Of a stretch of 64,000 nt of DNA, positions 10,433 through 61,300 are shown in pieces; position 1 is the first letter of the stretch, and every line of letters starts with the position of its first letter. The stretch lies in the NCBI GenBank assembly GCA_017463125.1, contig JAFTPV010000003.1, positions 29,190 through 93,189 on the forward strand, in the 5' to 3' direction. The notes under the pieces are model-generated. The model was not told the origin of the DNA and searched no databases. It saw nothing but the letters and a program-made list of their open reading frames with translations. A program made the position numbers and the translations under genes. The DNA is from Clostridia bacterium (GTDB lineage: Bacteria; Bacillota; Clostridia; Oscillospirales; CAG-272).

Positions 10433-12142
10433 TTATTGCAATTCAGCTGTTGTGAAGTTTTCTGTATAAACAATTGTTGAAGCACAAGCGGGATTTACAG
10501 TGAATTGAATAGCGGCAACAGGAACATCCGTAGGAGTAGCACTGCTGGTCAAAACGTTATTAGTTCCGTTTGTATAAAGATTAATCGCTCCGGTAGACCA
10601 TTCGTATTCAATCTTAAATTCAATCGGCTGACCGGGGATATTATTTATATTATTCGCTGACCTAAATGTAGTATCAAAAAGTCTGATAAAGCGACGTGTA
10701 TCATCGTATTTATAGCAATAAATTGACACGCTGTAAAGCACATTTCCGTCAGCATCAAGGAAGTTAATATAATTCATATGCTGTCCCAAAGCAATTTCGT
10801 CATACTTTATATTAAGAGTAGCAACAGCCTTGGTAGGATCTGCGTCACCGCTCTTGTCTTCGAGCTGAATAGTATAGCTTGCCGAGCTGATAACCGTGTG
10901 ACCGGTAACTGTGTGCTCTGCACCGTTGTTTACAAACGAGGTGCTTGCTGTTCCATCGTCGGCGTAAGTAGTAACCTTCCACAAGTCAATACCCTCTGCA
11001 TAAGGTGTTACGGTATTTGCTTCGGATGCGGTGTCTACTACGAGAGAAGTGCTTTCACCGTTGAGAGTGCCGCCGTCAATACAAACGTATGCAAGACTAG
11101 AGAGAAGATACTTATCGGTATTGTAAGAGAATACCTCTTGAGCAGCTATACCGTAGTTTAGAAGCGCATTATATAGCTTTGCCTTAGATTCGCTGGGTGA
11201 GGTGGTATAAAGCATTTCCCAGCAATATTCTGCGACGCTATACGTTACCATATTGTCATAAGTAACATCTGTTCCTACTATGTGAGGAACTGCATAGATC
11301 GTGTCACCTACCGCCTTTGCGGGTATGCCGAAGGTTTTGTATACGGGATACGCGGGGTTGGGAGTATATTCTCTCGTGTCCAGAGCTGCTTTGTATACAG
11401 TAGCGGAAGCATTTTTGGTAGGATCCTCATTATAAAGAAGAACCTCAAGCTCCTGACCTTCTTCGAGATATGTATTGTTTACCGCATAGTAAAGATATAC
11501 GTTATCCTCATAACTAACGCTCTTAGAAACGATTTTAGGAGATTTGTCAATATTGTTAAAAGCGGCATTTGTTGACACTACGTTATTTACAGTAAGGGTG
11601 TATTCGATGTCCTCAAGGAGAGGAGTTATTCTCACGTCGGTTACGGGCGTCGTTGTCGTCTCAAAGTTTGCAAGCGACTTAGATTCAAGTGTCGATGTTT
11701 TTGTATCTGTTTTGCAAGTATATACAAAGGTACCTGCTGCAAGGTCTACATCAAAAACTAAATTCATAGTGTATCCGGGTCTGTTATTCATACTACCGTT
11801 ATCAAATCTAGCTTTATCTGCTCCGCACGCTCTGATTCTGTATCTGTTACCGGCAACAGCCTGAGTGTTGTCATAATCTTGCCCTTCTAAATAGAACGTG
11901 GTTAAAGCATTGCCATCTGCATCAAGTAAATCTATTTGGTGCATAATTCCAACAGCAACCTTACTGTAGTTAATAGTAAAATCAACTGTTACGGTGTTTA
12001 CGGTTTGGTCATCGGTGTCTATGGCAGTTGCATGTCTGGTTACGGTCTCGTTATCCGCAGCTACAGCCGCAATGCCAAAAGCTGAGCCGATAATAAGTGC
12101 GAGAGATAGGATAAATACAAGAATTTTAGTTTGTTTTTTCAT
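10433..12142 (-). CDS. Secreted beta-rich repeat protein (cassette 1)
   Basis: A 569-residue exported protein with a Sec signal peptide (residues 1-29, cleavage after AVA). Two copies of a beta module (about 48-195 and 432-566) share the pattern (N/K)Y....G..(M)....(L/F)LDADGN....(Y/I)....YD...R..IR; the same module occurs three times in the neighbouring 1379-residue lipoprotein. Between them, residues 200-420 form a domain with YSV.EYC.E.L and LNYG...Q.. motifs, also found in the secreted protein at 59369-60811. No anchor or sortase signal is seen, so it is probably released or held by protein contacts. Last gene of a four-gene operon; AAAGGAAAC precedes the start. The modules look like carbohydrate- or protein-binding folds; no catalytic motif is seen. 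Confidence 0.85.
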   Translation of the reverse strand: MKKQTKILVFILSLALIIGSAFGIAAVAADNETVTRHATAIDTDDQTVNTVTVDFTINYSKVAVGIMHQIDLLDADGNALTTFYLEGQDYDNTQAVAGNRYRIRACGADKARFDNGSMNNRPGYTMNLVFDVDLAAGTFVYTCKTDTKTSTLESKSLANFETTTTPVTDVRITPLLEDIEYTLTVNNVVSTNAAFNNIDKSPKIVSKSVSYEDNVYLYYAVNNTYLEEGQELEVLLYNEDPTKNASATVYKAALDTREYTPNPAYPVYKTFGIPAKAVGDTIYAVPHIVGTDVTYDNMVTYSVAEYCWEMLYTTSPSESKAKLYNALLNYGIAAQEVFSYNTDKYLLSSLAYVCIDGGTLNGESTSLVVDTASEANTVTPYAEGIDLWKVTTYADDGTASTSFVNNGAEHTVTGHTVISSASYTIQLEDKSGDADPTKAVATLNIKYDEIALGQHMNYINFLDADGNVLYSVSIYCYKYDDTRRFIRLFDTTFRSANNINNIPGQPIEFKIEYEWSTGAINLYTNGTNNVLTSSATPTDVPVAAIQFTVNPACASTIVYTENFTTAELQ

Positions 12143-12167
12143 TTTGTTGTTTCCTTTCTTTCCTTTT

Positions 12168-12296
12168 TTAATTTTTTTCGGGGGTCCAATCGCCCCAGCT
12201 TCCCTCTCCACCGTAGGGTGATGACGTTGCGATAACGTCTGCGTCTTGGAGCAGGATTATCTCAAGCTCCGTTTTTTCGTAATTTTGCTTTTTCAT
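12168..12296 (-). CDS. 42-residue mini-peptide (cassette 1)
   Basis: A short gene with a strong GAGGAGG ribosome binding site ending five bases before the ATG. It lies between the lipoprotein stop (20 bases) and the start of the secreted protein (25 bases). The product begins MKKQNYEKTELEIILL, has DVIATSS in the middle and ends WGDWTPEKN. It shares YE...(L/I)EI(L/I).....D(V/I)I.(T/S)S...G.WTP with the 44-residue peptide at 60854-60988, which also lies directly before a secreted protein gene. There is no signal peptide, cysteine or catalytic motif. I recall similar small ORFs in gut Clostridia without known function. Conservation in two loci makes it a real gene; its role is unknown. Confidence 0.8.
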   Translation of the reverse strand: MKKQNYEKTELEIILLQDADVIATSSPYGGEGSWGDWTPEKN

Positions 12297-12315
12297 TTTT
12301 CCTCCTCATTATATA

Positions 12316-15300
12316 TTATTTTTTGTTTAGTTCAAGCTGTGTGAAATCCATCTCATAGACGGCATCAGCGCTTAAAGGAGTTACGCGCAGCTTTACGGGC
12401 GCCTTACCCGTCAGCGTGTTACCCTCGTAGCCTGAAATATCTATTGCCGAGCCAGCAGTACCGTTACACGTTACGGTGAGGGTCAGGTCTGTAAAGTTAA
12501 ATTCCAAGAGGAATACTACGTCTCTTTGCGGCTTGTTGCCAAGGCCACCGCCAATAAGCGCCATATATCCGTCGGAATTCTTACCGCTTATTCTTATTCG
12601 GTATTTATCCGAAAGAGCGCTTTGGGAGCCGTCATAAAGATTAGCAAAGAGATATACCGTATTTATAACGTTTCCATCCGCATCAAGAAGCTCTATACTG
12701 TGAAGAGCCTCTTGCCTCAAGAGAGACGAGTAATTTACGGTGAAGCCTATGAGCGCGGTATTCGCACTCTCGCCTTCGGGGGTGACGTCTGTAAGATCAA
12801 ACGTCAGAGTTTTATTCGAGGTATCGTCCTCCGAGGGATTTTCTTCCTCATCGGGAGGCTGCTCCGCATTTACATAGGTAGCATCGGCAGTCACAATATC
12901 AACGCTATACGCTACCTCATCGAGTAGTGCCTCAAAGGCAACAGAAGCTATCGGGGTATCCGTCGCATTTTTATCAAAGGTGTGCTCCGCGAGATTACCG
13001 TTTGTATAAACCTTCATAGCTCCGCTCGTCCAGTTATACTCGATGCGGAAGGTAATATCCATACCTAGCTTGTTACCGACATTCGCTCCCGTTAGGTAGC
13101 CGACTCCGTCAGCAAAGGCTCTTATTCGGTATCTCTCCGTTGCTGTTGACTGGGAGTCGTCATAATCATGACAGTAAATGAAAATACTGTTGATTACATT
13201 TCCGGCACTGTCGAGGAACGAGAGCTTATTCATATTCTGACCGCCCGCAACTTTACTGTAATTTACCTTAAATTCGGTGGTAAGAAGGTTTGCGCCCTCG
13301 TCTACGGTCGTAACCGCCTTTGTCACAGTTTCCTGACGGACGGGAATCTCAGGTGTCGTGCCTGCCCTGCCTGTCGCAATATTTTCCGCCTTAACATTGG
13401 AATATGTAAACTTTGAGTAAGCGTCAAGGTTAGTGAATACCACCTTTGCTACCGGAACTTTAGAAGCCTCTTCTACAAACGTTTTCGTAACTTCTTTTCC
13501 GTTGGTGATAACCTTTATCTCGCCGGTTGCAAAGCAATACTCAATCCTGATAGATATATCCTGCTCCATCTTATTACCGACGTTAGCACCTGACATATAG
13601 CCGTATCCGTCCTTGAAGATTCTTATACGGTATCTCGCGTTACCCACGAGTGCTTTATCGTAATCGTGACAGTATACGGTGTATTCGCTGAGGACGTTAT
13701 CCTCGGCATCAAAGAAGGATATCTTGGCAAGATGAGCACCGCCTGTTGCCTCGGTGAAATTAAGTGTTGCCTCAAACACGGAGGTGTCAAGCTCCTCGTC
13801 TGACGTATCAAGGGGAATGGCAGTATCCACCTTCGTACCCTCGGGAACAATGCCCCACGTGGAATTAGGGTCATCGACATTCATCCATTTAGGATCAGCG
13901 AGGATCATCGGCTTATATTCACCCATTGTCTGATAAGAACGAAGATTATCAAGAAGCAGAGTGAAGGACTTTCCGCCCATTACGTAGATTTCTGTCAAAG
14001 CAAATGAGTTTTCAGGCTCACCGACAGTTCCGTCTATTGGCTTATTGTAGTAATTATTACTTACAGCAACAGGCTTGCCGTTAAGATACAGGACTGTTCT
14101 TATAGTATCGTGATCCCCTGCGTACTGAACTATTCTCATTCTATACCAGGTATCTTTTTGCAGCGTTACGTCAAGGTCGCTTATAATGGACTTATCGTTT
14201 TCCTGGTTTGTAACCTCTATCAGCCTTATCTCACCAGATATATTCTGAATTGATAATATATACGCGGGGGACAGCATAATACGGGCAACGTAAGTGGTAT
14301 CTATCTCATCAATATAGAAATCACCCTCGAAAATAAACATATTAGCCATAGGCATAGCGCTAACGTTATTTATTTGGATAACGTCTCCGCCGTCGTTGTT
14401 TGAATCAAAGCGAAGAACATTCCTGCTGCCGTCAAGGCTTTCGTGCTCTATAACTGTAAGCCCATCACCGCTGGAGCCTAGGAAGTAAACGACGTCTGTG
14501 GGAGCGCTGCCCACGCTGTCATTCTCAAAGTCTAACGGAAGAGGCTCCTCGTAATCATCCTTAATTATCTCTCCCATTCCGGCTAAGATGTTCATAAGAC
14601 GGAAACGGTCGCTCGTCGTATATCTTGGAACCAGGTATTCTGAAATATCAAGAGATTTGAAAATATGCTCAACGAGAGCACAAATTATTGTTCCGGTTCC
14701 GTTAAGATCTCCTTCAACCTGATTACGTACGCAAACGTTGACACCCTCGGAAACCGGTGTTGAATATTTAGGAAGATAGGAGAACGATCCGTCGTCCTTA
14801 CGGAAGGTAATACTCTTATCAATAGTTCCTTGGATTGCCTTCGGCGCAAGAGCGCGAATCTTGGCTATTACCTCATCGGCACGAGCCTCTCTTTCGGAGG
14901 TTTCACCAGGAGAATACTCCCTGATATTTTTTATTATGTAGCCTACGCAGGACCAAACGTTATATATATCAACAGCCGCCGAACATTCCTCATTAGATGA
15001 TAGCGAAATAAGAGTGCTTTCGAGCATCTTATCAACGTTTGGAAGAGGAGCCTTTGCCTGATTATAGAAATAAGCTATCTTATGTAATCCGTTTGTACCA
15101 TAGTAATTTACAGCCGTGTGCCAAAGGCCGTTCTCTTTATTCTGAGCACCGTTTAGCTTCTCTATGGTTATACCGACAAAATCAATTCCCTGCGATTTGC
15201 CATAGGAGCGCATCTCACCTATCAAGGACTGAAGGATACTTCCATAATCATACGCTCCCGTTTTGAAATCCATTGAATCAAGATATTCTCTGAATTTCAA

Positions 15301-16554: not shown

Positions 16555-17796
16555 TCATCGTTTTTTCTCAAGAGCCGAAAGATAAGCCTCAAGCTCCGCT
16601 GACGCAAAAAGCGGAACGGTGTATTCGGTAATTCCAAGAGCGGTATAAATACTGTTTATTACCGCAACGCTTCCGCAAAGCGCTCCGTTTATATCTCCCT
16701 CTGCGGTTCCGGGAACGGCTACCGGTGCCTCCTGGGCTGTGGGAGTTGAGGTTTCTCTCAAATAAGAAATACCACCGTCATTTTTCTTAAATGGAATTAT
16801 TTTTTCTTTAGTTCGATTTATACCGTCTGCCGCAAAGGCGTATATTTTATCGGTGAAATTCTTTTTATCCTCCTCAGTTGCATACCGCTCCTTGTTTTTT
16901 CTCAATTCGCCGATTGCATGCCAAGGATTGTATACGTCAACGGTAGCATTGGGTGCCTTGTCTGAAAGTATTATATCTATCGCGCTATCAAGCGCTTCGT
17001 CAAGATACGGTATTTTTCTTCCTTCTGAATTATATATCCAAGATATTTTATGGAGTCCGTTCAGCCCATAGTAGCTCACCTCTCTATGCCAGAGTCCATT
17101 ATCGGCTCTCTGGTGCTTATCGAGCCAGTCCATAGTGATTGTCATAAAATCAACACCGAGCATTCTGCCAAACGCACGTATTTCACCGCGCTGCGAAAGC
17201 ATTTCACTGCCCGCATTGTAGGAGCGGTTGCATATATCAAGACTCTCTATGTACTCAAGATAATTTTTCTCGCTTCTGAAGCGCTCGGGAGCGTTATTTA
17301 TATCATAATTTTTAGAATTTGCCGAAGAAGAGATGGGTATTACGTATTTAGGCTTTGCTCCAACCGAATCAAGCAGACGCATTGCCGTATCAACGTCACG
17401 GGATTTTCTGAGATTTGACACATCGGTGCCCCACTGGGGATGATAAAAATAGCCGTCGGGAGCCTGCAAGGAATTAACAAATGTGGCAACGCTCTTCTTA
17501 AGCCAATCGGGAATTATCTCGCTGTAAGGCACACCGCCGCTCATGCCGGACGAGGTAATAAAGTCAAGCGCCCCTATGGTGCTTTCAATATCGGGAAGAA
17601 AGCCGTCCGTTTTTTGCCCGCTTGCCGAGTGATACCAGCCTCCGACCTCGTGATCATATAAAGATGCCATCCATTCTATCATTTTTTGATCATATACATC
17701 GTAAAGAGCTTTTATCGAATCGCTAAGCTCTGAACCTACCTTTTCCTCAAGTCTTTTCCATAAAGGAAGTCTTTCCTTATCCTCGCATCTATACAT
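16555..17796 (-). CDS. Cytosolic alpha/alpha-toroid protein (cassette 1)
   Basis: 413 residues without a signal peptide, so cytosolic. Almost the whole length matches the toroid domain of the neighbouring lipoprotein: GGWYHSASG, PDIEST, DGYFYHPQWG, RKSRD, DNGLWHREVSYYGLNGLHKI and DGGISYL. The repeated Q/D-rich DG(Y/L)(F/W) motifs recall the alpha/alpha barrels of six-hairpin glycosidases, polysaccharide lyases or terpenoid cyclases, but no catalytic signature of a named family was found. AAAGGAGAAC precedes the start. It is first in a leftward operon; no consensus promoter is obvious before it, fitting activator control by the divergent AraC gene. The function is unknown. Confidence 0.8.
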   Translation of the reverse strand: MYRCEDKERLPLWKRLEEKVGSELSDSIKALYDVYDQKMIEWMASLYDHEVGGWYHSASGQKTDGFLPDIESTIGALDFITSSGMSGGVPYSEIIPDWLKKSVATFVNSLQAPDGYFYHPQWGTDVSNLRKSRDVDTAMRLLDSVGAKPKYVIPISSSANSKNYDINNAPERFRSEKNYLEYIESLDICNRSYNAGSEMLSQRGEIRAFGRMLGVDFMTITMDWLDKHQRADNGLWHREVSYYGLNGLHKISWIYNSEGRKIPYLDEALDSAIDIILSDKAPNATVDVYNPWHAIGELRKNKERYATEEDKKNFTDKIYAFAADGINRTKEKIIPFKKNDGGISYLRETSTPTAQEAPVAVPGTAEGDINGALCGSVAVINSIYTALGITEYTVPLFASAELEAYLSALEKKR

Positions 17797-18019: not shown

Positions 18020-18829
18020 ATGTATTCAAATTTTACCAAAAATGAAAAAATAGATTTTATAAATTATGAAATGACGGTAAATCTCTCCGGAAAACAAACA
18101 AAGGTCTTTCTTCAAAGAGGTTTTTTCAACCACAACGTTCCGCTAAAGGATTATCCCTCGCCTTATTCCGTTCCGACTCTTCATTTGCACAATTATCCGG
18201 AGATACATCTCTTTATGGGCGAAGGTATAAATCTCACCGTCGGAGGAGAGTCATTTGTTCCCGAGCCGGGACGTGTGCTTATAGTGCCGGGAGGTGTTTA
18301 TCACTCACTCGATATACCGTCAAGCGCCCTGCACTGTGCTTTTCAGATAGATATTCCGTCAACCAAAATGAAGTTCATCTCTCTCCCGATAGAGCTTCTG
18401 ACAAAATTCATCAAAGAGATACAGCGCGCAAAGGCTACATCCGATTACTCCGGGCTTGAAAAGTATATTTCATTTATAGGCGCTCATTTCATTGACACAT
18501 CGGCTGTTAAGGTAAAAAAGACGGATGACTATGCCTTTGTAATCTTGGAGTTTATGTCGCTCTACTATAACCTCGATATACACCTCTCTGACCTTGCCCA
18601 AAGGCTGCACGTTTCAGAAAAGCAAACGGCGCGCCTCGTTCTGAAATACACGGGTAAAACCTTCAACGAGGAGTTGACGAGATACCGCATTTCAGCAGCG
18701 GAGCAGCTTATGATGATGAACCCCGATATGCCGATAGGAAAAATCGCTTCTCTCGTCGGGTATCAATCTCACAGCGGATTCTGGAAGGCATATAAGAGAT
18801 ACAAGGGCGAGAAAAGCATATCGGAATAA
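18020..18829 (+). CDS. AraC-family transcriptional regulator
   Basis: 269 residues. The N-terminal half is a cupin sensor domain (HNYPEIHLFMGEG...PGRVLIVPGGVYHSLDI); the C-terminal 100 residues carry the two helix-turn-helix motifs, LSDLAQRLHVSEKQTARLVLKY and MPIGKIASLVGYQSHSGFWKAYKRY. The start at 18020 has AGGAAA upstream. Transcribed away from cassette 1, whose first gene starts 223 bases to the left, so it probably senses a sugar and controls that operon; the convergent catabolic operon at 18915-22939 may be a second target. The second HTH is slightly divergent from the AraC signature. Confidence 0.88.
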   Translation: MYSNFTKNEKIDFINYEMTVNLSGKQTKVFLQRGFFNHNVPLKDYPSPYSVPTLHLHNYPEIHLFMGEGINLTVGGESFVPEPGRVLIVPGGVYHSLDIPSSALHCAFQIDIPSTKMKFISLPIELLTKFIKEIQRAKATSDYSGLEKYISFIGAHFIDTSAVKVKKTDDYAFVILEFMSLYYNLDIHLSDLAQRLHVSEKQTARLVLKYTGKTFNEELTRYRISAAEQLMMMNPDMPIGKIASLVGYQSHSGFWKAYKRYKGEKSISE

Positions 18830-18847
18830 AAATTCTTATACAAAGTA

Positions 18848-18914: not shown

Positions 18915-20258
18915 TCAATTCTTGACAAGCTTGCAAAGCTCGACGGTATTTTTTACTATAATGTCGTCTCCGCCTTTTTTAAGTCTTGAGGTTCGAGATT
19001 CATATCCGCCCTCGTCATACGCACGCGAGGTTGGGAAATATGTCTCGCCTCCGTTGGTAAGGCAGCACACAAAAACGCTATCAAAAGACAATTCTGCCTC
19101 GATTCTTCTACCGATTTCAGTAAAACACTCACCGGGCATACCGAGAAATGCAACGTCGCCTATCGAAAGGGCTGAGAGGGTGAAGAAGAAGCTCTTCGGT
19201 CCTTCGGAAAGCTCGACAATTCTGTATGCCTCGGCAACGGCGGTGGTAAGCTCCATTTTCTCAAACGGAAGCTCGTGTGCTCTGCCCGCCATGTGAAGCG
19301 CCTTGATTTTTCTTGCTTGGTCGAGCTTATCGTTTTCGGCATTGGCGGGGATTTCAATTTCTTTTGTAGCGAAGCCGATTTTTTCGGAATTAACAAAGCG
19401 AGCCTTGCCGTAGTCTGCAAGAACTGCCGAGGCAACCACTCTTCCCATATGCGCTGTGTGGTCGTAACCGCGAGGAACATTATCAAAGCTATCGTATTCA
19501 AGTCCTCTGCGGTCTGCATCGGTGGGATTCGGGTTTATATGGTTTACATCCCCCTGTGATGCGGTAAGGAAGAGGCATTTTGTGTTAGGTAATGCGCTTT
19601 CAAGAGTGCTTCTTACAAAGCCGGGCCAATCGGCGCTGATGAGCTCACCGCCAACGGTATCTGCATGAGTACCGAAGCTTACGATAACCATATCGTCACC
19701 GCCCTCGCGGTCGATTCTTAAAAATTTTACGGTTTCGTTTACATCGCCTAAAACGTGATCTATATCGGGATTTCCTACACCGGGGTTTGTCGCGGTAGAA
19801 CCGTCCTTCATCTTATATCTTCTGACAAAGGAGATGTTTTCAGCCTTGCCGGAGCCTACCGAGAGCTTTGACTCCTTCATATCGAGGAAGGCATTTGCTG
19901 CCGTGTCCTCAAGAGCTTTGGCAAAGTGGGCACAGTATTTCTCATCAACCACCTCGTCACCGAAGCGCTCACCGTTAAGGAAAGGACCTGTGTGAGTGTG
20001 GGAGCAGTTGATAAATATAGCCTCTGGCGCAATACCTGTGCGGCGGCTTATTTCCGCCTTATGAATATTACACTGCTCCTTTGAAAGCATAAGAACGTCG
20101 GCGGTAACAATAACCGCCTTTTTTTCACCGTCATCAAAGGCAACGGCGCTCACATAAAGGTCGTCTAGGACCCCTTTTACAGTTCTTGTTTCGTAATAAC
20201 CCGAAATATTAATACCGTTCCAAGGGGTGACCTTTGCTCTTGCAAATCCTGTTTTCAT
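18915..20258 (-). CDS. Neutral/alkaline ceramidase-like hydrolase (N-terminal domain family)
   Basis: 447 residues. It matches the N-terminal zinc-dependent domain of neutral ceramidases: TPWNGINISGYY, VIVTADVL, CSHTHTGP (residues 85-92, zinc-binding histidines) and SFGTHADTVGG. There is no signal peptide and the C-terminal Ig-like domain of true ceramidases is missing, so it is probably a cytosolic amidohydrolase acting on another substrate, perhaps a carbohydrate or an N-acyl compound. The start at 20258 has GAGGGAAGAT upstream, 11 bases after the upstream gene's stop, so it is the last gene of the leftward catabolic operon. Confidence 0.8.
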   Translation of the reverse strand: MKTGFARAKVTPWNGINISGYYETRTVKGVLDDLYVSAVAFDDGEKKAVIVTADVLMLSKEQCNIHKAEISRRTGIAPEAIFINCSHTHTGPFLNGERFGDEVVDEKYCAHFAKALEDTAANAFLDMKESKLSVGSGKAENISFVRRYKMKDGSTATNPGVGNPDIDHVLGDVNETVKFLRIDREGGDDMVIVSFGTHADTVGGELISADWPGFVRSTLESALPNTKCLFLTASQGDVNHINPNPTDADRRGLEYDSFDNVPRGYDHTAHMGRVVASAVLADYGKARFVNSEKIGFATKEIEIPANAENDKLDQARKIKALHMAGRAHELPFEKMELTTAVAEAYRIVELSEGPKSFFFTLSALSIGDVAFLGMPGECFTEIGRRIEAELSFDSVFVCCLTNGGETYFPTSRAYDEGGYESRTSRLKKGGDDIIVKNTVELCKLVKN

Positions 20259-49128: not shown

Positions 49129-50637
49129 ATGAAAATTCTTTCAATCGGAAACAGCTTTTCCGAGGATGCGCAGAGATATCTGCACGCTACCGCAGAGTAT
49201 GAGGGTATTGACCTTATGTGCGCAAATCTTTTCATCGGCGGCTGCTCACTTGAGACTCATTATGACAATCTTATAAATGAGACAAGACCCTACGAATATT
49301 CCGAAAATGCGGAGTATTTAAGAAAATCAACACTTAAAGACGGCATTGCCGCTCATGAATGGGACATAATAACTCTTCAGCAAGCGTCACACCTCTCTTA
49401 TAAAGAGGAGAGCTATTTTCCTTACATAAACGAGCTTGTAGCATATTTGCGTAAGAGCTGCCCTAATGCGAAGATATATATCCACCAAACCTGGAGCTAT
49501 AATACTAATGAAAGACTTGCCTCCCATAAGTTTGGTACACATGCGGATATGTTCTCTTACGTTGAAAGAGCCTATCGTAAGGCAGAAAAGGAAATAGACG
49601 CTGACGGATTTATCCCTGCGGGAGAAACGCTCGAGAGACTTAAAAACAGGGGCTTTAATCCTCACCGTGACGGAAGCCATGCGAGCCTTGGGCTTGGAAG
49701 ATTTGCGGTGGCTCTTACATGGCTCGGTGCGATTTGCGGCTACGATATAACCAAGGTAAGCTACAAGGACTTTGATAGATTTGTAAGTGAAGATGAGTAC
49801 CAGGCGGCTATCGAGTGCGCCAAGGAATCCTTAGAAAACGGAAAGCTTCTTTACGAAATAAGAACCAAGCACAACGTTCCTTATGCTGTAAGCCACAGCG
49901 GCACACCCGACACAAATCCCGAAAGAGCGCTTGACATCTATCTGCCAAATACCGATAACTTTGACACCTTCGTTTATTTTCACGGCGGCGGATTCGTTAA
50001 CGGTGATAAGTGCGGTGAGTTTTCTCCTACCGTTGCAAAATACTTTACCGATAACGGCTTTGCATACGTGAGTGCAAATTACAGAATGTATCCTAATGCA
50101 CAGTATCCAGACTTTATAAGAGATGCGGCTCTGGCTGTTGCTTACGTCAAGAAGAATATAGAGTCGTTTGGCGGAAACGGAAGGGTCTTTGTCGGCGGTA
50201 CGTCAGCGGGCGGATATCTTTCGCAGATGCTCTGCTTTGATAAAAAGTGGCTTGCATTTAATAATATTAAGGTTTCTGACATTGCGGGCTTTGTTCACGA
50301 TGCGGGACAGCCTACAACGCACTTTAACGTACTGAGAGAGCGCGGATTTGACAGACGAAAGCTCGTGGTTGACGAGGCGGCACCGCTCTATTACGTCGGT
50401 GATGCGGAAAATTATCCGCCCATGCTCTTTATCCTCGCTGATAACGATATGAAAAACAGACCCGAGCAGACCGAGCTTTTGCTTTCAACAATGCGTCACT
50501 TCGGCTACGATATGTCAAGGGTTGAAAAGGTGGTCATTCCCGACTCTACCCACTCGTCGTATTGCAAGAAGCTTGACGAAAAGGGCGAGCCTGTCTTTGC
50601 GAAGGTTATCGTAGAATATCTCAAAAAAGTTAAGTAA
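49129..50637 (+). CDS. Two-domain hydrolase: DUF4886/SGNH esterase fused to an alpha/beta hydrolase
   Basis: 502 residues. The N-terminal half (1-230) is SGNH-like: GNSFSED with nucleophile Ser9 and the DGSHAS block with Asp181 and His184. The C-terminal half (260-502) is an HSL/esterase-type alpha/beta hydrolase with HGGGF (285-289), nucleophile Ser359 in GGTSAGG, an acid in LADND (Asp438/440) and His475 in DSTHSSY. Both active sites look complete, so it may remove two ester groups from one glycan. No signal peptide: cytosolic. A tight two-gene operon with the SemiSWEET-like gene. Confidence 0.88.
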   Translation: MKILSIGNSFSEDAQRYLHATAEYEGIDLMCANLFIGGCSLETHYDNLINETRPYEYSENAEYLRKSTLKDGIAAHEWDIITLQQASHLSYKEESYFPYINELVAYLRKSCPNAKIYIHQTWSYNTNERLASHKFGTHADMFSYVERAYRKAEKEIDADGFIPAGETLERLKNRGFNPHRDGSHASLGLGRFAVALTWLGAICGYDITKVSYKDFDRFVSEDEYQAAIECAKESLENGKLLYEIRTKHNVPYAVSHSGTPDTNPERALDIYLPNTDNFDTFVYFHGGGFVNGDKCGEFSPTVAKYFTDNGFAYVSANYRMYPNAQYPDFIRDAALAVAYVKKNIESFGGNGRVFVGGTSAGGYLSQMLCFDKKWLAFNNIKVSDIAGFVHDAGQPTTHFNVLRERGFDRRKLVVDEAAPLYYVGDAENYPPMLFILADNDMKNRPEQTELLLSTMRHFGYDMSRVEKVVIPDSTHSSYCKKLDEKGEPVFAKVIVEYLKKVK

Positions 50638-53600: not shown

Positions 53601-56600
53601 CACCCGCATCGGGAACTATTTCGGCATCAAATACCCAGCTATTACCGTCGGCATAGGTATAAGCATAGCTTACCCTGTCGCCCTGGGTTATCATAACGGC
53701 GTTCCAAGAAGCAGGAGCGCTGACTCTGACAGTAAGAGGATAATTATAGATTTCGTTATCCAGCTTGTCGGTGAGAGTAACGGTTACGGATTTTGCATCT
53801 CCGGTAACGCTTACCACAGCCCCCTCTGCCTCGCGCAGATAAAGTATCGCTTCCTCAAGGAATGCGTTCCATACCTTGCCTGACTCAACGTTCTCGGCGA
53901 TTGCGGCACAGATTTCGTCCATTTTAGCAAGAGTTGTTGCCTGGGTGTCGGCTGATGCCTCAGCACTCGTTTCAACTACTCTGTGAGCGAAGATTACCGC
54001 AAGCTTACCGCCTGCCGCCTCTGCAATGTCGTTAAGCGCAGAGCCGGTCCAGCCCTCTCCGATAGAACAGGAGCTTACATCAACCCAGTCTATCTCTCCG
54101 AAGGTGTTGGTTCTTCCATCGGAATCTCCCTCGTAATCTCTTGCGCCGATGTAATACTGCTCGACAAGATCGTACGCGAGCTTAAAGACCTCGTCCTTTC
54201 CGTACTGTGAAACACTAGATGAGAAGCCGGGATACGCATAAGTAAGAACTCTTTGTGTTGGGAAGAGATTGCGGAGTATAGTCTGCGAATCAACTATCTC
54301 CTTCTCCAGCGTTCCGTTTGCGTTATCAACGCCCCACCAGGTGTGAGTGTAGGAGTGGTTTGTAATATTCCATCTTCCTGTGTTTATGAGCTTTTTCCAA
54401 GAGTTTACATTTGAAGCCTTGGGTGCGCCTGTGCTGCTCACAACGTTGTTTACAACAAGCGCGACGTCCCCCTTAAGGCTGTATTTCTTGTAAAGGTAAT
54501 CAAGAAGGTTTGCGGAATCGATATCTCCGTCGTCGTGCATTATAACGACTATACCGTCAGCACCGCCCTTAACGTCTAAAATCTCTGCCTCGGGCTTATA
54601 CTCCTCGTCGGATGCGCCGGGATTGACTACGGGTGCGTCGGGGTCGCCCTCAACGTACGCCTTATCAACGTGAGTGTAAATGAGGTTATCAAAGTCGAGC
54701 TGTGCCTTGGTTTCTGCCTTAAAGAGATAAAGCATAAACTTATCCGTAGTAGAGGAATTATCGGTTCTCATCTCACCCTTGTAGGCACCGTTTACGTATA
54801 CCTTTACAATAGAGTAAGTAATACCCGCAGCGTTAGTCTTATACCAATACTGCTCAAGGCGGATATTGTTCCAAGTTCCCGAGGAAATATCGAGAGGAAC
54901 TACGGTGTTTTTACCGTTATAGGAATACGAGAGGTTAAGAGAGTCGCCGTTCTTTGAAACAACGATATCCTTACCGAAACGCCACTTCATAGGAGTTGCG
55001 GCAGAAAATCCGGAATATCTGAAATCAAACTCAACGACACTGGTTTTTCCATTCTTAAACTGATAGAATGCGTCGGTGAGTGCGTTTGTAAAGGTGATGT
55101 AATCCTCTGCTGCTGTGGGATTTTCCGTAACCTTACCGAAGCGGTAGTATTTATCCGTAACTGTTCCGTCCTCGCTTTGCTCGGTGATAAGCTCAGTATA
55201 AGCCGAGCCGTTATTATAGCCCATTGCGGGAAGCTTTACTTCCTCGGAGTCAAAGTCATAACGGGTTGTATTCTTCTTAAGTGTTGCATCGGTGTAATAT
55301 TTACCCGTTGCGTCGCCAAAGTCGGGAGGCGGAGGCGCGATGTATGCCACCTCATCGGTCGTCGTGCATACGTCGTCAAGTGACCAAGAAAGATTTTCTG
55401 ACTCACAACGGTACTCCATCATACATCTTGCAAGTGCGGTGTCCTTACCCGCAGAGCCGGACGTTCCGCCGTCACCTACATACTTGCCGTCGAGGTATAC
55501 CATACATATCTTATCGGTAGCAGCTACTGCGGAGTCGGTATAATACTCAAATCTCAGAGTGTACCACTTGCCTGCATCAAGCACTGCCAAAGGGTCACTG
55601 ACACCGTCAAGGCAGAGCTGACCCTTGCTGTTAGTATAAGCGAGCATATACCAGAATCTGCCGCTATTGTTATACATCGAGAACTTGGTGTGCCAGCTTC
55701 CTGCCGGAACGGTATCACCGCCGTTGAAGCGGACGCGCATCTCGTAGATATATCTCGAGCCGCCGCCCTCGAGAGTACGGAAGCTAAGCTTTGACTCTGC
55801 TTTGCTGCCGCTCTCAAGAATACTCTGTGTCGTCTTACCGAAGGTTACGAATTGATTTTCCTCTCCGTTCACTTCCTCTTTGTCAATATAAGCGTAAGCA
55901 TAACCCTTGTAAACCACGCCGTCCGGCTCGGTGTCAAGCTCTGTATAGTCTGTACTGTGGAACAAACCTTCAAGAGTGTCGCCGTTGAACTTTATCGATC
56001 CGCCGTATTCGGTGTTTGTCTTAATGTTAGGCTCCATTTTGTCAAGCTCGTCGAGGAACCTCTCAAAGTCGTAAGGAGTGCAGATGTCAACCTCGGCTTC
56101 GGTATAGCCAAGGGCTGAAAAAATTCTGGCCGGAACGGAAATTATAGAAATATAGGTCGCGTTTACGTCGCCCTCTCTCATACGGGAAACACAAACGGGC
56201 ATATTCTGTGACATTTCAGAAGAGAAATCAGGGGTAAATGAGAACGAGCCGTCACCCTTTAAGAAAGGAGCGTATTTCTCTGCCGCTATCAAAATGTACT
56301 TTGCGGCATTTTCGCGAAGATCTGCACGAATATCATCAGCAAGAGCACGTGTTTCATCGGTTGCGCCTGCCTTCTCGGATTTTAAGAGTCCGATAATGTT
56401 GCCGAGAGAGTACCATACGTTATAAACCCAGCAAACAGTGTGCGGGTCTTCCTTTGATTCAAGCACTGCTATACAAGTGTCTGCCGCTTCTTCAGAATGC
56501 TTAATTATTCTTCCCGCATCAGCATAGCAGGCGGAAATCTTAAGGAAGCCGTTTACCGCGTCGTCGTCACGCTTATCCGACCACATACCCGTTTCCTTGT

Positions 56601-57843
56601 TCTGAATATTATCAAAGAAATCAAGGCAAACGTCGGCAAGTCCCGCCTCTTTTATAAGAGTGAACTGCGCGGCAACTCTGTTACCGGAGGTGTAGGAGTC
56701 ATTCCAGTTTTGTTGATTAAGATAAGCGATAAACGCCTGCTCGTTTGCAAGATGTCCCGATGCGGTAGGCACAACCTTGGATACCGCAAAGACTCTCGAC
56801 TGACCGAGGCTTGACGTAAGAAGAGATGCCGCCGTAGCACCCGAGCTTACCGACGCATACATAGGCTTTGCACCGAAGATGCTTAAGATTCTTCTTGCGT
56901 TAGTAACGTCACGTCCAAGACGCTCGTCGGAGTATTCGTAATTTTCCCACTGGGGATGATAATACTTCTTATCCGTCGGGCTCTGCAAAGACTGAACCCA
57001 AGCGACTATATTTTCTCTCATTTCCTGAGGCAATTTCTCGCGAAGCTCGCTGTCGGCCGAAACCATTCCCGAGTACGCGAGGAAATCAAGCGCCTGGCGC
57101 GTGCTCTCAAGGTCGGGCGCAAAGGATATGGTATCTCTTGCCGAAACGGAATAGTAAAATCCGCCTGTTACGGGGTCGTAGAGGTTAGCGAGCCAGATAT
57201 ACGCCTTGTCGGAATAGAGCAAATATAGCTTTTTGAAGGCGTCGACGGTAGCCTTACCGTCGTAGCCCTTATCGTTTACGTATTTTTCGAGCGTCTGCCA
57301 CTGCTGCTCTCTGTATGCGGCGTCCTTGTCTTCATAATAATCAGCTAAAATGAAATTATTATTTACCAGAACGCCCTTTTCAAGCTCGATCTTACCGTCC
57401 TTAACGTTAAGGCAACGCTCTGCAAAATCAGCAATCGCCTCCTCTAAAAGACTGTCACGGCTATAAGCTATGGCAACGGAGGTTCCGTCCGTATAGATTA
57501 TATATCCGTCCTTATTCTGATCCATATAATAATCGAGATAACGGTATGCTGTCTCGGAAACTGCTCTGTCCGTTCTTCCGATAACCACCTCGTGCTCGGT
57601 GGCGCTATCCTTCACGGAGCGCATCTTGGGGCTGGTGCCGATAGCGTCGTACATCGTTGAGCGAAGCGTGCTTGAGAGCTTAATATCATCATTCTCGTAC
57701 ACTATGTATATGTCACTTCCCTTTGCCCAGAAAATGCCGTCTGCCGAAATGGGGTCGTCGTCATTTCCCCCGCCCGCCGTGCAGGCGCAAAGTGTCATAA
57801 TGCTCATCAAAATGACTAGTAATAAGGTATAAAGCTTTTTCAT
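50695..57843 (-). CDS. Giant surface lipoprotein: toroid, NodB deacetylase and six LamG-like modules (cassette 2)
   Basis: 2382 residues. Lipoprotein signal with Cys21 (TLCAC). In order: a GH20b-like domain (about 80-165, VVIGRTDRAV...YIIYTDGTSVAIAY); the toroid (180-600, GGFYYSVSARD, PDLEST, YYHPQW, GMWSDK, NGFLKI); LamG-like modules at 615-840 and 845-1065; a NodB-like deacetylase (1095-1345) with MHDDGD and NHSYTHTW (His1163, His1167) as metal ligands; then LamG-like modules at 1446-1640, 1655-1850, 1890-2110 and 2136-2375, with Pro/Asp-rich linkers before the last two. AAAGGAAAG precedes the start. It would sit on the cell surface and bind a polysaccharide through the LamG modules while deacetylating it. 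The last two modules are near copies of each other. Confidence 0.88.
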   Translation of the reverse strand: MKKLYTLLLVILMSIMTLCACTAGGGNDDDPISADGIFWAKGSDIYIVYENDDIKLSSTLRSTMYDAIGTSPKMRSVKDSATEHEVVIGRTDRAVSETAYRYLDYYMDQNKDGYIIYTDGTSVAIAYSRDSLLEEAIADFAERCLNVKDGKIELEKGVLVNNNFILADYYEDKDAAYREQQWQTLEKYVNDKGYDGKATVDAFKKLYLLYSDKAYIWLANLYDPVTGGFYYSVSARDTISFAPDLESTRQALDFLAYSGMVSADSELREKLPQEMRENIVAWVQSLQSPTDKKYYHPQWENYEYSDERLGRDVTNARRILSIFGAKPMYASVSSGATAASLLTSSLGQSRVFAVSKVVPTASGHLANEQAFIAYLNQQNWNDSYTSGNRVAAQFTLIKEAGLADVCLDFFDNIQNKETGMWSDKRDDDAVNGFLKISACYADAGRIIKHSEEAADTCIAVLESKEDPHTVCWVYNVWYSLGNIIGLLKSEKAGATDETRALADDIRADLRENAAKYILIAAEKYAPFLKGDGSFSFTPDFSSEMSQNMPVCVSRMREGDVNATYISIISVPARIFSALGYTEAEVDICTPYDFERFLDELDKMEPNIKTNTEYGGSIKFNGDTLEGLFHSTDYTELDTEPDGVVYKGYAYAYIDKEEVNGEENQFVTFGKTTQSILESGSKAESKLSFRTLEGGGSRYIYEMRVRFNGGDTVPAGSWHTKFSMYNNSGRFWYMLAYTNSKGQLCLDGVSDPLAVLDAGKWYTLRFEYYTDSAVAATDKICMVYLDGKYVGDGGTSGSAGKDTALARCMMEYRCESENLSWSLDDVCTTTDEVAYIAPPPPDFGDATGKYYTDATLKKNTTRYDFDSEEVKLPAMGYNNGSAYTELITEQSEDGTVTDKYYRFGKVTENPTAAEDYITFTNALTDAFYQFKNGKTSVVEFDFRYSGFSAATPMKWRFGKDIVVSKNGDSLNLSYSYNGKNTVVPLDISSGTWNNIRLEQYWYKTNAAGITYSIVKVYVNGAYKGEMRTDNSSTTDKFMLYLFKAETKAQLDFDNLIYTHVDKAYVEGDPDAPVVNPGASDEEYKPEAEILDVKGGADGIVVIMHDDGDIDSANLLDYLYKKYSLKGDVALVVNNVVSSTGAPKASNVNSWKKLINTGRWNITNHSYTHTWWGVDNANGTLEKEIVDSQTILRNLFPTQRVLTYAYPGFSSSVSQYGKDEVFKLAYDLVEQYYIGARDYEGDSDGRTNTFGEIDWVDVSSCSIGEGWTGSALNDIAEAAGGKLAVIFAHRVVETSAEASADTQATTLAKMDEICAAIAENVESGKVWNAFLEEAILYLREAEGAVVSVTGDAKSVTVTLTDKLDNEIYNYPLTVRVSAPASWNAVMITQGDRVSYAYTYADGNSWVFDAEIVPDAGEATIVPVLKADVPVVKATLPNEELIDVEFTVGDGVGKYYIDPSYAGDRYDYDSTATELPKHETNGGAYLNIKGGSLYFKNKSDTNEDSIRFNYALTDAHKGYTTKQTVMEFDFKFGNVSATTPFKLRVGGNDYALTMVKGYLSIGSISLGLAPNVWNNVRLESYAAADATYLKIFVNDVLRYDAKCATADTPEKMCLYLMSAEKSESAYVRMDNLFFGRYDAAYTAETPEVFDPETAVTDDATGDYYTNAEITDGTRIDYDTSDATPTVSGSDIPYVKAGSLEFARGERETYADSYIQYNVKSFTGIETPVMIFETDIKFVGFSAAPDANAGWIRLYSNSKEYSVYIKHDGDNMVLTVLGATGSVTLTEGEWHNIRFEIDYATNSVYIYVGGELAGTFANATATDRGGSRKILVYLCSAETTGAIYLDNLYYGVLEEGTFEKDNTGDDNEEPTDPETPIDPDTPTEPDTPEEIVSDATGDYYIAYENGKVTGKTWDYDTITTIPEGNTSYSGGYDKAATDDTRVATKTGSFAIASGALKFEDGDVEFNGDMIAKFGLSYPNDADSYTCTVFEFDFKIDQVYGSYPIQIKLGSNNNLTIWYQNGNLCIQNANKEYVALGTTVGKWSTIRFEAYYADATIKVYVGNEYVLDAPFAGEASKGKITPMIYLTAYERSRLSDANLWIDNVYVGHLALDFVAGEPDDNTGSDDSGTTEPDTPEEIVSDATGNYYIAYENGEVTGKTWDYDVITSIAADSISYSGGYSSKDVQDETTATKTGSFAIVDGALMFEDGAQEWGAAMTAKYWLAYPSDFANYENRCDIFEFDFKLAESFGTSPIQIKIANRTYTISYSKAYDSSYGTGFKLCMTATVTNEDGTTSTAVTPLGTSINAWSTIRFEHYYNENIAKVYVNNEFVLDCKASSGTQDQGTPMIYLTNNERCTGSNADLYVDNVFVGHHDKAYVAGDPNANTEQ
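51370..52211. repeat. Internal duplication of the terminal LamG-like module
   Basis: The 104-base stretches 51370-51473 and 52108-52211 differ at only 5 positions and lie 738 bases apart, at the boundary of successive modules of the giant lipoprotein. The modules between are more diverged, suggesting a recent duplication or gene conversion of the linker. Confidence 0.85.
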
Positions 57844-57887
57844 AAACTTTCTTTCCTTTCTTGATAGAATTTGCGAGTGGGTCCGTA

Positions 57888-59165
57888 TTATTTTTCGGAC
57901 TCGGGAATATTCAGCGCATCTATAAAGCGCTCAAGGTCGTGGTAGGTGTATATCGGCACGTAATATTCGGAAGCTCCGAGCGCCTGATAAATGTTGCGAG
58001 TAAGGCCCGAGGTACAGAGAACTGACGCGTTTACGTCGCTCTCGGGCATATCCTTAAGGCATACCCAAGCCTCCTGCGACTTGGAGGACGAGCAGGCTCT
58101 GTGATAGGAGAATGCGCCGTCTGCCTTTCTGAACACCTCTGTCTTTTTTCTCGCTGCGCCAACAGATGCGGGAGCGTTCTCTAGCATGAGCTTCATTATT
58201 TTGTCTGCGGTCTCATTATCGCCCGTACGGCGAAGAGATACTATTATATTCTGAAGAGCGTACCAGCAGTTGTAGAGGTGGCAGACGGTGGTTCCTACCT
58301 CGTCGGACTTCGTACACTCTATCGTGGTGAGTGCGGCGCGCTCTGCCATATTTATCGGGAGCTTGGCATCAATGTAGAAGGCGGTAATTTTAAGGAATCC
58401 GTTTACACCCGTGTGCATATCGGGCTTATCGCTCCAGTATCCTGTCGTCTCATTCTGATATTTATTGAGATATTCGGCGCAGACCTCGGCAAGACCTGCC
58501 GCGATTATCTGCCTGCCCTGCGCGGCTATCATATTGCCCGCGTAGTAGGAGTTGTTTACCCAGTCGAAGCTCTCAAGGTACTTTATAAAGTTTTCCTTTG
58601 AGGTAAGGTGCTCGGGCATGAGAGCCGCCTGCTCCTTTTTTTCATTTTTATCAGCCTTTGCAAGTGCGGCAAGGCGCTGGCTTGCGGTGGGGTATGGGAG
58701 AGTGAAATTAAGCTTTCTCGCCATATCGTCTGCCCACATAGCATCTCTGCCTCTGCGGGAGTTGACGATGTCCTTTCCCCACTGGGGATGGTATATGTAT
58801 CCGTCGTCCTTATCCTGAAGACTGCAAACAAAGGCGGAGAGCTTCTTTCTCATAGACTCGGGAAGCTCGTCACAGCTCTTCATCATACCCGAATTGAGCA
58901 TAAGGTTAAGCGCCTGGTTCGTGCTCTCTATATCGGGGAGGAACGGCTCGTTATCCCTTGCAGAATTGGAGTAATAAAATCCGCCCGTCTTGTGGTCATA
59001 AAGCTTTGCAAGCCATATAGGAAGCTCGTCTGAATAGAGCTTATATAGCTCGCGGAAGCCTGCGACAACGGCAGCTCCGTCGGTGCCTCTGGAGTTAAAA
59101 TGCTCTTCAAGAGCACGCCACTTGGGTGCAAGGTATTCTTCCTTCGTTAATTTTGCAGTGTTCAT
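57888..59165 (-). CDS. Cytosolic alpha/alpha-toroid protein (cassette 2)
   Basis: 425 residues, no signal peptide. It matches the toroid of the giant lipoprotein next to it and the cassette 1 toroids: GGFYYSNSARD, LPDIEST, DGYIYHPQWG, RRGRD, TGYWSDKPD, NGFLKITAFY and DGAFSY. The start at 59165 has GAGGAAAAAAC upstream. It begins 132 bases after the terminator that ends the secreted protein gene, so it may have its own weak promoter. A cytosolic copy beside a surface copy occurs in both cassettes, suggesting the same chemistry inside and outside the cell. Confidence 0.8.
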   Translation of the reverse strand: MNTAKLTKEEYLAPKWRALEEHFNSRGTDGAAVVAGFRELYKLYSDELPIWLAKLYDHKTGGFYYSNSARDNEPFLPDIESTNQALNLMLNSGMMKSCDELPESMRKKLSAFVCSLQDKDDGYIYHPQWGKDIVNSRRGRDAMWADDMARKLNFTLPYPTASQRLAALAKADKNEKKEQAALMPEHLTSKENFIKYLESFDWVNNSYYAGNMIAAQGRQIIAAGLAEVCAEYLNKYQNETTGYWSDKPDMHTGVNGFLKITAFYIDAKLPINMAERAALTTIECTKSDEVGTTVCHLYNCWYALQNIIVSLRRTGDNETADKIMKLMLENAPASVGAARKKTEVFRKADGAFSYHRACSSSKSQEAWVCLKDMPESDVNASVLCTSGLTRNIYQALGASEYYVPIYTYHDLERFIDALNIPESEK

Positions 59166-59296: not shown

Positions 59297-59323
59297 GCGC
59301 GGGCCTCGGGTAAAGACCCGCGC
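59297..59323 (-). terminator. GC-rich terminator of the secreted protein gene
   Basis: Stem GCGCGGG / CCCGCGC with a 13-base loop, followed leftward by ATATTTTAAT. The weak U-tract may permit read-through to the toroid gene. Confidence 0.6.
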
Positions 59324-59368
59324 AAACAAAATTTGCTGGATTTTATTGAAAAATTAAGTTTTTAAGAA

Positions 59369-60811
59369 TTATTCTGCGGGGGTTGCGTTAGGGTCGCCAG
59401 CAACGTAAGGGATTTCCTCGGCGGTGAAATGTCCTGTATAGACATTATCTACCCAAAGATTTGCGTCAGAAGCAGTCTTGCGCTCATTTGCAGAAAGTGT
59501 AATTCTAAATGAACCCGTTGTTTTGTATGCCCAATTTGTATCTAGCACAAATTCATTATTAATGTAAACTTTTGCTTTTCCTTCGTTCTTATACTGCTCA
59601 ATTCTTATATTTGCCCACGAACCGGGTTTAGCACCAAGAATTACCGCCGTACCTGACTCGTCAGGCATCGTAAGGTAGTACACACCGTCTATCTTTGTAT
59701 AGGAGATTGCTTTGTTTGTTTCGTGTATAAATATTTCTATAGGCGAAGAGCCATATACTTGGTCAATCTTAAAGTCAAATTCGATTATGGAGCAATTGTA
59801 AGTATCAGGATACGATTGCCAGAACTTAACATACATAGCACTAGAACTTACATCGCCATCATCATAGAGAAGAGAACCGTCGGTAATAGAAAGCGTACCG
59901 TCAGATGCATCTTTAGCACTAAGCTTGTCGGTACTTGTAATAACATCAAAGTCCCAATTAGTTCCTTTGGTAATAGTACCATTCTCTCTTGCAAGGAAAT
60001 ACTCACCTGTTGCATCGGTAAGCTCGGGGCCTGCGATGCAGCTTGCGGTTGCGGTGAACTTATCATCGGTTACGGTGATTTCTGTGCCTGCAAGGTCTGC
60101 AACCTCCCAGCCAAGACGGGTTTCGGTTCCTGCATAGGTGAGTTCAACCTCGCTGCCCTTGATAACGCATACTGCGTCAGCGCCGTTTACCTTAACGCCG
60201 TCAGCACCCTTTACGTAAACGTAGTTTTCGGGATAATCGTTTACATTTGCTTCGGGATAGCAGTCGAGGAACGCCTGAATCTTTGTTCCGTATGCGAGGG
60301 TTGCCTCACATGCGTCCTTGACTTTAAGCTCGTATTCGGAGGGCTCTGCCTTGGTTGCTATGTAGGTGAGCCACTCGAGGCAATATTCGGTTACACTATA
60401 GGTCTTTTCTGCGCTCTCGGTACCTGCTTCAGTAACAGCCTGTGCTACGAACTTGTGGGTAAAGCTCTTTGCATCAACGCCGGGAGTCATGAAGGCGCGG
60501 CAAACAACGTCGTTTCCTGCGCTATCCTGGAGAGTAACTTCTTCGCTCTCGGTGATAGTTACCTCTTTTGCATTACCTTCGCTATCTACGTATGAAACGT
60601 TAAGAGCTATCTTTTCGGGATTTGCTACGTTCTCATATTTTACTGCAAAATAGAGATGAGTCGTTCCTGCGTATTCGACTTTTTGAGAAACGATGGCAAC
60701 AGATTCTGCTGCCGTCTCACCCTCTGCGGACGCGGTAAAGCCTACTGCCATACCGATAACCATAGCAAGAGTGAGAGTTAGGAGGAAGATCTTAGTAAAT
60801 TTGGTTTTCAT
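59369..60811 (-). CDS. Secreted protein with LamG-like C-terminal module (cassette 2)
   Basis: 480 residues with a Sec signal (1-29, cleavage after ASA). Residues 35-260 match the central domain of the cassette 1 secreted protein (VSQKVEYAG..HLYFAV, YSVTEYCLEWL, LAYGTKIQAFL). Residues 266-475 are a LamG-like module nearly the same as the last two of the giant lipoprotein: TGEYFLARENGTI, EFDFKIDQVYGSSPI, LWVDNVYTGH. Both proteins end in YVAGDPNA plus a few residues. The start at 60811 has AAAGGTG upstream; a GTG nine bases earlier overlaps that site and is rejected. Preceded by the 44-residue peptide gene. Confidence 0.85.
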   Translation of the reverse strand: MKTKFTKIFLLTLTLAMVIGMAVGFTASAEGETAAESVAIVSQKVEYAGTTHLYFAVKYENVANPEKIALNVSYVDSEGNAKEVTITESEEVTLQDSAGNDVVCRAFMTPGVDAKSFTHKFVAQAVTEAGTESAEKTYSVTEYCLEWLTYIATKAEPSEYELKVKDACEATLAYGTKIQAFLDCYPEANVNDYPENYVYVKGADGVKVNGADAVCVIKGSEVELTYAGTETRLGWEVADLAGTEITVTDDKFTATASCIAGPELTDATGEYFLARENGTITKGTNWDFDVITSTDKLSAKDASDGTLSITDGSLLYDDGDVSSSAMYVKFWQSYPDTYNCSIIEFDFKIDQVYGSSPIEIFIHETNKAISYTKIDGVYYLTMPDESGTAVILGAKPGSWANIRIEQYKNEGKAKVYINNEFVLDTNWAYKTTGSFRITLSANERKTASDANLWVDNVYTGHFTAEEIPYVAGDPNATPAE

Positions 60812-60853
60812 TTTTTTCACCTTTCTTTAGTTTAGATTGATTGGACTTTTGTT

Positions 60854-60988: not shown

Positions 60989-61128
60989 ACGTAAATCCTT
61001 TCCGAATTTCTTTTTCAGAAACTCTAATTTTGTTTTTTATATCCAAAAGCGCAGGTGCTTATAGATAACTAAAATAAATTTTTCTCTGACAGGAGAGAAT
61101 TGTATTGTATACTGTTGTTCTGTCTTTT

Positions 61129-61158
61129 GGCAACTTCTTTCTCCTGAAAGAAGTTGCC
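61129..61158. repeat. 13-bp hairpin in the cassette 2 leader
   Basis: GGCAACTTCTTTC / GAAAGAAGTTGCC with a 4-base loop, then CCCGGGGGCG and TTTTTTT on the plus strand. It looks like an intrinsic terminator for plus-strand transcription although no plus-strand gene ends here; on the minus strand it is a stable stem in the peptide leader. Confidence 0.65.
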
Positions 61159-61223
61159 CCCGGGGGCGTTTTTTTGTTTTATTTTTGTACGCGTTTTTTT
61201 CTCTGTTTTTTCCTTGCACCTTA

Positions 61224-61253
61224 ATTATAGCACCAAGCACCCTTAAAAGTAAA
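61224..61253 (-). promoter_or_regulatory. Promoter of cassette 2
   Basis: Leftward TTTACT (61248-61253), 18 bases, TATAAT (61224-61229). Confidence 0.6.
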
Positions 61254-61300
61254 TGGATTTTTTAACTGACTTGCAGAAAAATGGTGGACTTTTTAACTGT
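61254..61300. promoter_or_regulatory. Paired TGGAYTTTTTAACTG elements upstream of the cassette 2 promoter
   Basis: TGGATTTTTTAACTGA (61254-61269) abuts the -35 box, and GTGGACTTTTTAACTGT (61284-61300) lies 30 bases further. They are direct repeats three helical turns apart, as expected for an activator site. Confidence 0.55.

Follow-up and report, generated by a model that had tools for sequence, protein, structure and literature searches.

The DNA analyzed here, a stretch of 64,000 nucleotides referred to below as the window (G000:C25:29190-93189, within a genome of 1.9 Mb), contains two copies of a four-gene cassette that encodes a cytosolic toroid protein (T), a lipoprotein with a toroid domain (TL), a short peptide (P) and a secreted protein (S). 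In the reading that we favor, which is probably but by no means certainly correct, these are multi-copy Gram-positive glycan-handling cassettes that feed precursors like those of linear polyphosphorylated peptides (LPPs), which are ribosomally synthesized and post-translationally modified peptides (RiPPs), to one shared maturase. The original prediction, made from the sequence of the window, held that no system of this composition had been described; that was incomplete, because the peptide resembles LPP precursors and matching enzymes are encoded elsewhere in the genome.

All eight cassette genes are present, every one on the minus strand, and the permuted gene order that had been predicted was confirmed: in the direction of transcription, cassette 1 is ordered toroid, lipoprotein, peptide and secreted protein, and cassette 2 peptide, secreted protein, toroid and lipoprotein. 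Start codons were reset to ATG with a better ribosome site. In cassette 1, T1 (16555..17796) has 413 residues and no signal peptide, and L1 (12316..16455) comprises a lipobox, an N-terminal domain, a toroid (14572-15903) and a β-rich tail that is matched to S1. These are followed by P1 (12168..12296), an LPP-like precursor peptide of 42 residues with YxxT in place of YxxP and a Trp near its C terminus, and by S1 (10433..12142), which has the conserved S domain and β modules. Cassette 2 begins with P2 (60854..60988), an LPP-like precursor of 44 residues in which YxxA replaces YxxP, and S2 (59369..60811), the C-terminal module of which is matched to the tail of L2 and, over 33 cassettes, ranks second among the matches to that tail. 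It continues with T2 (57888..59165) and the 2382-residue L2 (50695..57843), which includes a toroid (56032-57339), a NodB-like domain within 53809-54591 and LamG-like modules. A lipobox is present in both lipoproteins (LLFSC in L1 and TLCAC in L2).

The same genome has 15 toroid loci, of which 12 contain T and TL, one T only and two TL only, and relatives, searched with one genome for each species, yielded a further 58 loci. The latter are from metagenome-assembled genomes labelled Clostridia, Oscillospiraceae or Ruminococcus; where a gut source is named, it is roe deer, water deer, goat or yak. Linkage was counted over the 15 loci of the genome itself and 54 of the 58 from relatives, some of which are cut by contig edges; L016, which overlaps L025 and has one further complete cassette, L023, a near-copy of L024, L020, a 6-kb locus with one toroid and without P, and L058 (a toroid fragment) were omitted. 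Both P and S are present in 11 of the 12 paired toroid loci of the genome and in 21 of 22 in relatives, which supports a recurrent association there. The cassette genes are thus not grouped by chance, because P and S accompany 32 of 34 paired toroids, as compared with P in two of 35 unpaired loci (p = 6e-15). The two unpaired loci with P (L052 and L055) are both of the lipoprotein type, and P occurs in none of the 15 loci that have T alone.

S directly follows P in 30 of 35 cases (with L016, L023 and L020 omitted), and P lies 24-199 nt before S. The exceptions are L036 and L037, with one other gene between the two, L025, which runs off the locus, and the distant L052 and L055, in which P comes after a secreted gene. 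The orders observed among the loci include TL-T-P-S, T-TL-P-S, P-S-T-TL, P-S-S-TL-T and TL-P-S-T, so the proposal that two linked pairs move as units stands, with a constant order of P and S and a variable order of the toroid pair. Twelve P genes were counted in the genome, excluding a thirteenth, weak match (E 0.005, C16:132012): 11 belong to toroid cassettes, and the other adjoins S-like genes that have no toroid with them. The P-S unit can stand alone, because L156 (C25:117202-118798) has P followed by two S-family genes and no toroid. S-family secreted proteins, one of them 1503 residues long, are also encoded at L157 (C23:36930-38423) and L158 (C1:12895-13497), where neither a toroid nor a peptide match is present. 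In G391 and G392, toroid genomes of about 2 Mb, there are 21 and 15 matches to P.

The leader of P looks like those of LPP precursors. The enzyme set discussed below is that of the LPP family, represented by the lpp cluster of Paenibacillus alginolyticus and described in a May 2026 paper (PMC13381572). According to that paper, LPP precursors carry a YxxPxV motif, number one to three per cluster and lie inside it; the Pro of YxxP is important in binding to the RiPP recognition element (RRE), the kinase adds several phosphates to the core Ser, which is placed 18 residues after the Tyr, and the leader is removed by a SipW-like peptidase together with the RRE (PMC13381572). P shares with these precursors its small size, a conserved N-terminal leader, a variable core and a conserved Ser at a distance of 18-19 residues from the leader Tyr: the spacing is 19 in 32 of the 35 toroid-family peptides and 18 in the other three. 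Tyr, Asp and Ser (Y6, D20 and S25 in P1) are invariant, and the core is net-acidic, in all 35. A Trp lies within the last 14 residues in 34 of the 35, and in 5 of 19 other peptides of the class, the latter obtained by subtraction from 15 of 29, ten of which are toroid-family rows. A PDB sequence search with the peptide profile gave nothing useful.

Because the leader of P also resembles those of lasso peptides, the genome was searched for an RRE. A single copy was found (PF05402, about 48 bits), in an operon (L161) with the order kinase, RRE, S24/S26-like peptidase and NTP transferase that is not linked to the cassettes. A profile of 26 RREs matches LppB (9x8z, 2.4e-6), PbaB1 (9x90, 1.3e-6) and TbiB1 (5v1u, 8.9e-12), which marks it as a discrete RRE of the lasso/LPP type. 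The kinase gene (L161 9603-10349) is beside that of the RRE; its product matches nothing in Pfam and, in the PDB, PEP carboxykinase alone (0.014), so the name HprK-like is given from motif and context. Its P-loop and DDKP-type columns are invariant or nearly so among 23 kinases. The peptidase, also without a Pfam match (that of a relative gives PF00717 at 23.0 bits, just below the cut-off of 23.3), is probably a SipW-like leader peptidase: the Ser of SM.P, the His of LHR and an Asp of GD are kept in 33 of 33 sequences, and the Ser-His spacing of 39 equals that of S29 and H68 in LppS. The fourth gene matches the nucleotidyltransferase family PF14907 (132.6 bits). PDB sequence searches with the single RRE, peptidase and kinase gave nothing useful, and a profile search succeeded for the RRE only. 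In uniting an HprK-like kinase, a discrete RRE, a SipW-like peptidase and a nucleotidyltransferase, L161 agrees with LPP clusters; it differs from them in having neither a precursor nor a visible MsbA-like exporter. An ABC exporter was confirmed in L212, and L213, L215 and L217 have membrane genes of similar size. No macrolactam cyclase was noticed in the part of the operon region that was read, with no family search made for one.

RRE and peptidase adjoin the kinase in 16 of 17 kinase loci examined. In eight genomes of the class (L194, L207 and L212-L217), P and the kinase lie no more than about 1.3 kb apart, as they likewise do in the toroid genomes G403, G404 and G406, and in L212 and L213 the order is secreted protein, P, kinase, RRE, peptidase, ABC-type gene and NTP transferase. 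Among 391 genomes of the class Clostridia, scanned with a broad peptide profile at E 1e-5, P is present in 40 and the kinase in 110. The kinase occurs in 39 of the 40 genomes with P as compared with 71 of the 351 without it (p = 3e-23); by genus, the values are 27 of 27 and 42 of 196 (p = 2e-16), and with a narrow peptide profile 14 of 14 genomes with P have the kinase (p = 1e-8). The 19 toroid genomes include 17 with P, 17 with the kinase and 16 with both. Outside the toroid lineage P follows a secreted gene instead of preceding one: a gene on the same strand is directly upstream of 33 of 36 peptides, and a simple rule-based call assigned a signal peptide to 19 of the 21 such genes with a readable start, as compared with 29 of 123 control genes. 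A lasso label for P was rejected, because the lasso B2 protein is missing and P has no acid at a fixed ring position. B2 (PF13471), a transglutaminase-like peptidase, is over the cut-off in none of the 40 genomes with P, one of which (G128) has a sub-threshold match, and was not found in the genome of the window. Paeninodin-type lasso systems differ from P and its enzymes in these two respects and have in common with them the RRE type, the HprK-like kinase, the nucleotidyltransferase and a [Y/W]xxP-like leader (PMC7533575 and PMC13381572).

The four toroids of the window are homologous (E 2e-62 to 3e-104, 31-41% identity). The pairs within cassettes are the closest, with 38.6% for T1 and L1 and 41% for T2 and L2, and the remaining pairs have 31-33%. 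Of the motifs originally ascribed to all four, YHPQW, (I/L)EST and NG(L/F).KI are present in each and GGFY.S.SAR in three, T1 having GGWYHSASGQ. The comparison with terpenoid-cyclase folds that had been proposed placed the domain, by sequence or model, among α/α toroids of the terpenoid-cyclase/prenyltransferase type. Internal repeats are limited to segments 1 and 2 (hhalign 63%), the 14 other pairs of segments being unlike. Assignment to a named glycoside hydrolase (GH) or polysaccharide lyase (PL) family was rejected, with no such sequence match in Pfam for any of 86 toroids or in NCBIfam for T1, L1 and L2; the PHROGs phage families gave no match, and a PDB search with the toroid profile only weak matches to complement/TEP1 (0.065 and up). 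A large set of polar and charged residues is kept in cytosolic and lipoprotein forms alike, and these forms appear to share the same putative active site.

The toroid family is rare, being present in five of the 391 genomes in three genera, and has 31 domains in the 1.9 Mb genome of the window. A tree of these 31 domains, with T and TL mostly in separate groups, is a sketch, since no more than 7 of 28 inner branches have good support. Four TL-T-P-S cassettes (L089, L090, L091 and L095) have T proteins that cluster with T2 in one well-supported group (100/99), and the corresponding TL proteins form a less firmly supported group that includes a lone TL (89/87), a pattern in keeping with the duplication of entire cassettes. 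T1 and L1 instead pair with each other (96/91). The best match of a TL is the T of its own cassette in 7 of 35 cassettes (5 of 12 in the genome of the window), and the summed score of T and TL within cassettes exceeds all of 10000 permutations.

LamG-like domains, as had been predicted, are found in the lipoprotein tails, as jelly rolls in 8 of 43, and polysaccharide-lyase-like jelly rolls in 3 of 43. The NodB domain was likewise recovered in L2, as a NodB-like match at 28.2 bits against a cut-off of 23.1, on scanning the piece alone; it is not listed in a scan of the whole protein, and a PDB sequence search of the piece gave nothing useful. The GH20b-like identity proposed for the lipoprotein N terminus was rejected, since Pfam finds GH20 in none of 42 N termini and the hhalign probabilities against two comparison proteins are 0.2% and 0.5%. 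S proteins have a common conserved domain, with no useful Pfam match among the 13 scanned. The best S match of a lipoprotein tail is that of its own cassette in 13 of 33 cassettes, and in 8 of 11 in the genome of the window (0 of 10000 permutations).

The proposed role in surface glycan processing is supported, though not proven, by the sugar genes that neighbor the cassettes: 20 selected neighbors in the genome include GH20, GH20C, GH39, GH2, GH43, DUF4838, GFO/IDH, sub-threshold GH106 and esterase. The AraC regulators (HTH_18) are commonest among the flanking genes scanned in relatives (10 of 114). In the window, an AraC-type regulator (18020..18829, plus strand; HTH_18, 4.7e-15) is divergent from cassette 1, of which it is the probable regulator, and a DUF4886 domain fused to a BD-FAE-type esterase (49129..50637, plus strand) adjoins cassette 2, convergent with L2, and may belong to it. 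Gram-positive gut polysaccharide utilization loci have in common with the cassettes a surface lipoprotein, a cytosolic partner, an AraC regulator and nearby glycosidases, but the cassettes lack a transporter, contain a RiPP-like precursor and have a toroid outside Pfam and NCBIfam. A distant locus (L223, in G216) combines two TL toroids, F5/8 C and LamG modules, P, GH88 and GH3 in one run. Positions 18915-20258 of the window weakly resemble neutral ceramidase (25.1 bits, below the cut-off of 32.1) and adjoin a GFO/IDH/MocA protein.

Alternatively, the cassettes could be surface-adhesin or biofilm-matrix modules, in which the toroids and β modules bind glycans of host or diet without chemistry and the modified peptide aids matrix assembly. 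The LamG-like modules, the S-family proteins without toroids and the frequent location of LPP clusters near capsule loci, with a peptidase that is a SipW homologue (PMC13381572), would agree with this. We nevertheless consider it unlikely, as the large charged set is kept in both toroid forms and it is hard to see where a toroid of the cytosol would fit in an adhesin. More doubtful still is a role of the toroids as peptide-modifying enzymes, with the cytosolic form acting on the core of P and a peptide rather than glycan handling as the outcome of the cassette. Protein farnesyltransferase β is the best fold match of the toroid, P accompanies paired far more than unpaired toroids, and the C-terminal Trp is commoner in toroid-family peptides than in others of the class. 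However, the identity to farnesyltransferase and RabGGTase β (Prenyltrans, PF00432) is about 7-11%, and those proteins do not come as paired cytosolic and lipoprotein forms. The zinc site of farnesyltransferase is Asp-Cys-His, and it is absent from the toroids, because none of the columns that are invariant, or nearly so, in the 86 sequences holds a Cys. The extracellular lipoprotein retains the same polar set, loci with T alone have no P, and sugar genes are neighbors of the cassettes. That P is a short regulatory open reading frame upstream of S, coincidentally like an LPP leader and unrelated to RiPP maturation, would suit its position just before S, its lack of linkage to the operon in this genome and the frequent loss of the leader Pro, but is already disfavored and very improbable given the invariant Tyr, Asp and Ser, the tracking of the kinase, the peptides that adjoin kinase, RRE and peptidase genes in several genomes, and the reversed order of P and secreted gene outside the toroid lineage.

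If the cassettes handle glycans and supply precursors to a shared maturase, the surface lipoprotein would bear a toroid enzyme together with carbohydrate-binding-like modules, and the cytosolic toroid would process the same kind of substrate once imported. The secreted protein probably binds the same ligand as the lipoprotein, because its β module is often matched to that of its own cassette. P would be bound through its leader by the single RRE of the genome, phosphorylated on the invariant Ser by the HprK-like kinase and cut by the SipW-like peptidase, after which its short acidic core would be exported to work with the neighboring secreted protein, a partnership suggested by linkage.

Several observations weigh against this proposal. 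The Pro of the leader YxxP is Pro in 12, Ala in 21 and Thr in two of the 35 toroid-family peptides (Thr in P1 and Ala in P2) and is kept in 18 of 29 rows of the broad set, and the remainder of the leader motif departs from the LPP consensus. The maturation operon of the genome contains no P. G260 has P without the kinase, although its genus-mate G329 has the kinase; of the toroid genomes, G395 (1.2 Mb) has P without the kinase, G401 the kinase without P and G397 neither. The kinase alone is not specific, because it is matched in 71 of 351 genomes that lack P. The toroid has no sequence match to a GH or lyase, and its best fold match is a prenyltransferase; the tail-S match within the cassette is below the top in 20 of 33; and sugar genes are a minority of the 114 genes scanned that flank the loci of relatives (GH43, four; GH1 and GH20C, two each). 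The glycan substrate, the activity and the product are putative.

As far as the searches go, the enzymes and the type of peptide are known, and the paired toroid family and the dispersed arrangement of precursors beside secreted-protein genes (12 in this genome and 21 matches in G391) are new. In the literature searched, mostly outside subscription journals, LPP peptides were found described only in PMC13381572, in which no mention of Clostridia was counted, and no description was found of LPP precursors that are dispersed or linked to secreted proteins. A broader and tentative possibility is that the LPP-type maturase of Clostridia is a genome-wide service, in which dispersed precursors beside secreted-protein genes are modified in trans and the peptides are partners, tags or assembly factors of those proteins; the toroid lineage would then add new paired enzymes inside and outside the cell, and the cytosolic toroid may modify the Trp-bearing core. 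According to PMC13381572 (section 12), it is not known what LPP peptides do biologically. Because an LPP-related peptide tracks the maturation kinase over 27 genera of Clostridia and is beside a secreted-protein gene in the loci examined, it becomes testable whether such peptides act on the neighboring secreted protein. Besides this, the cassette delimits an uncommon family of toroids with inside and outside forms that, to judge from conserved residues, share a putative active site, and uncultured Clostridia of the gut have this surface cassette in many copies, probably for the handling of complex sugars.
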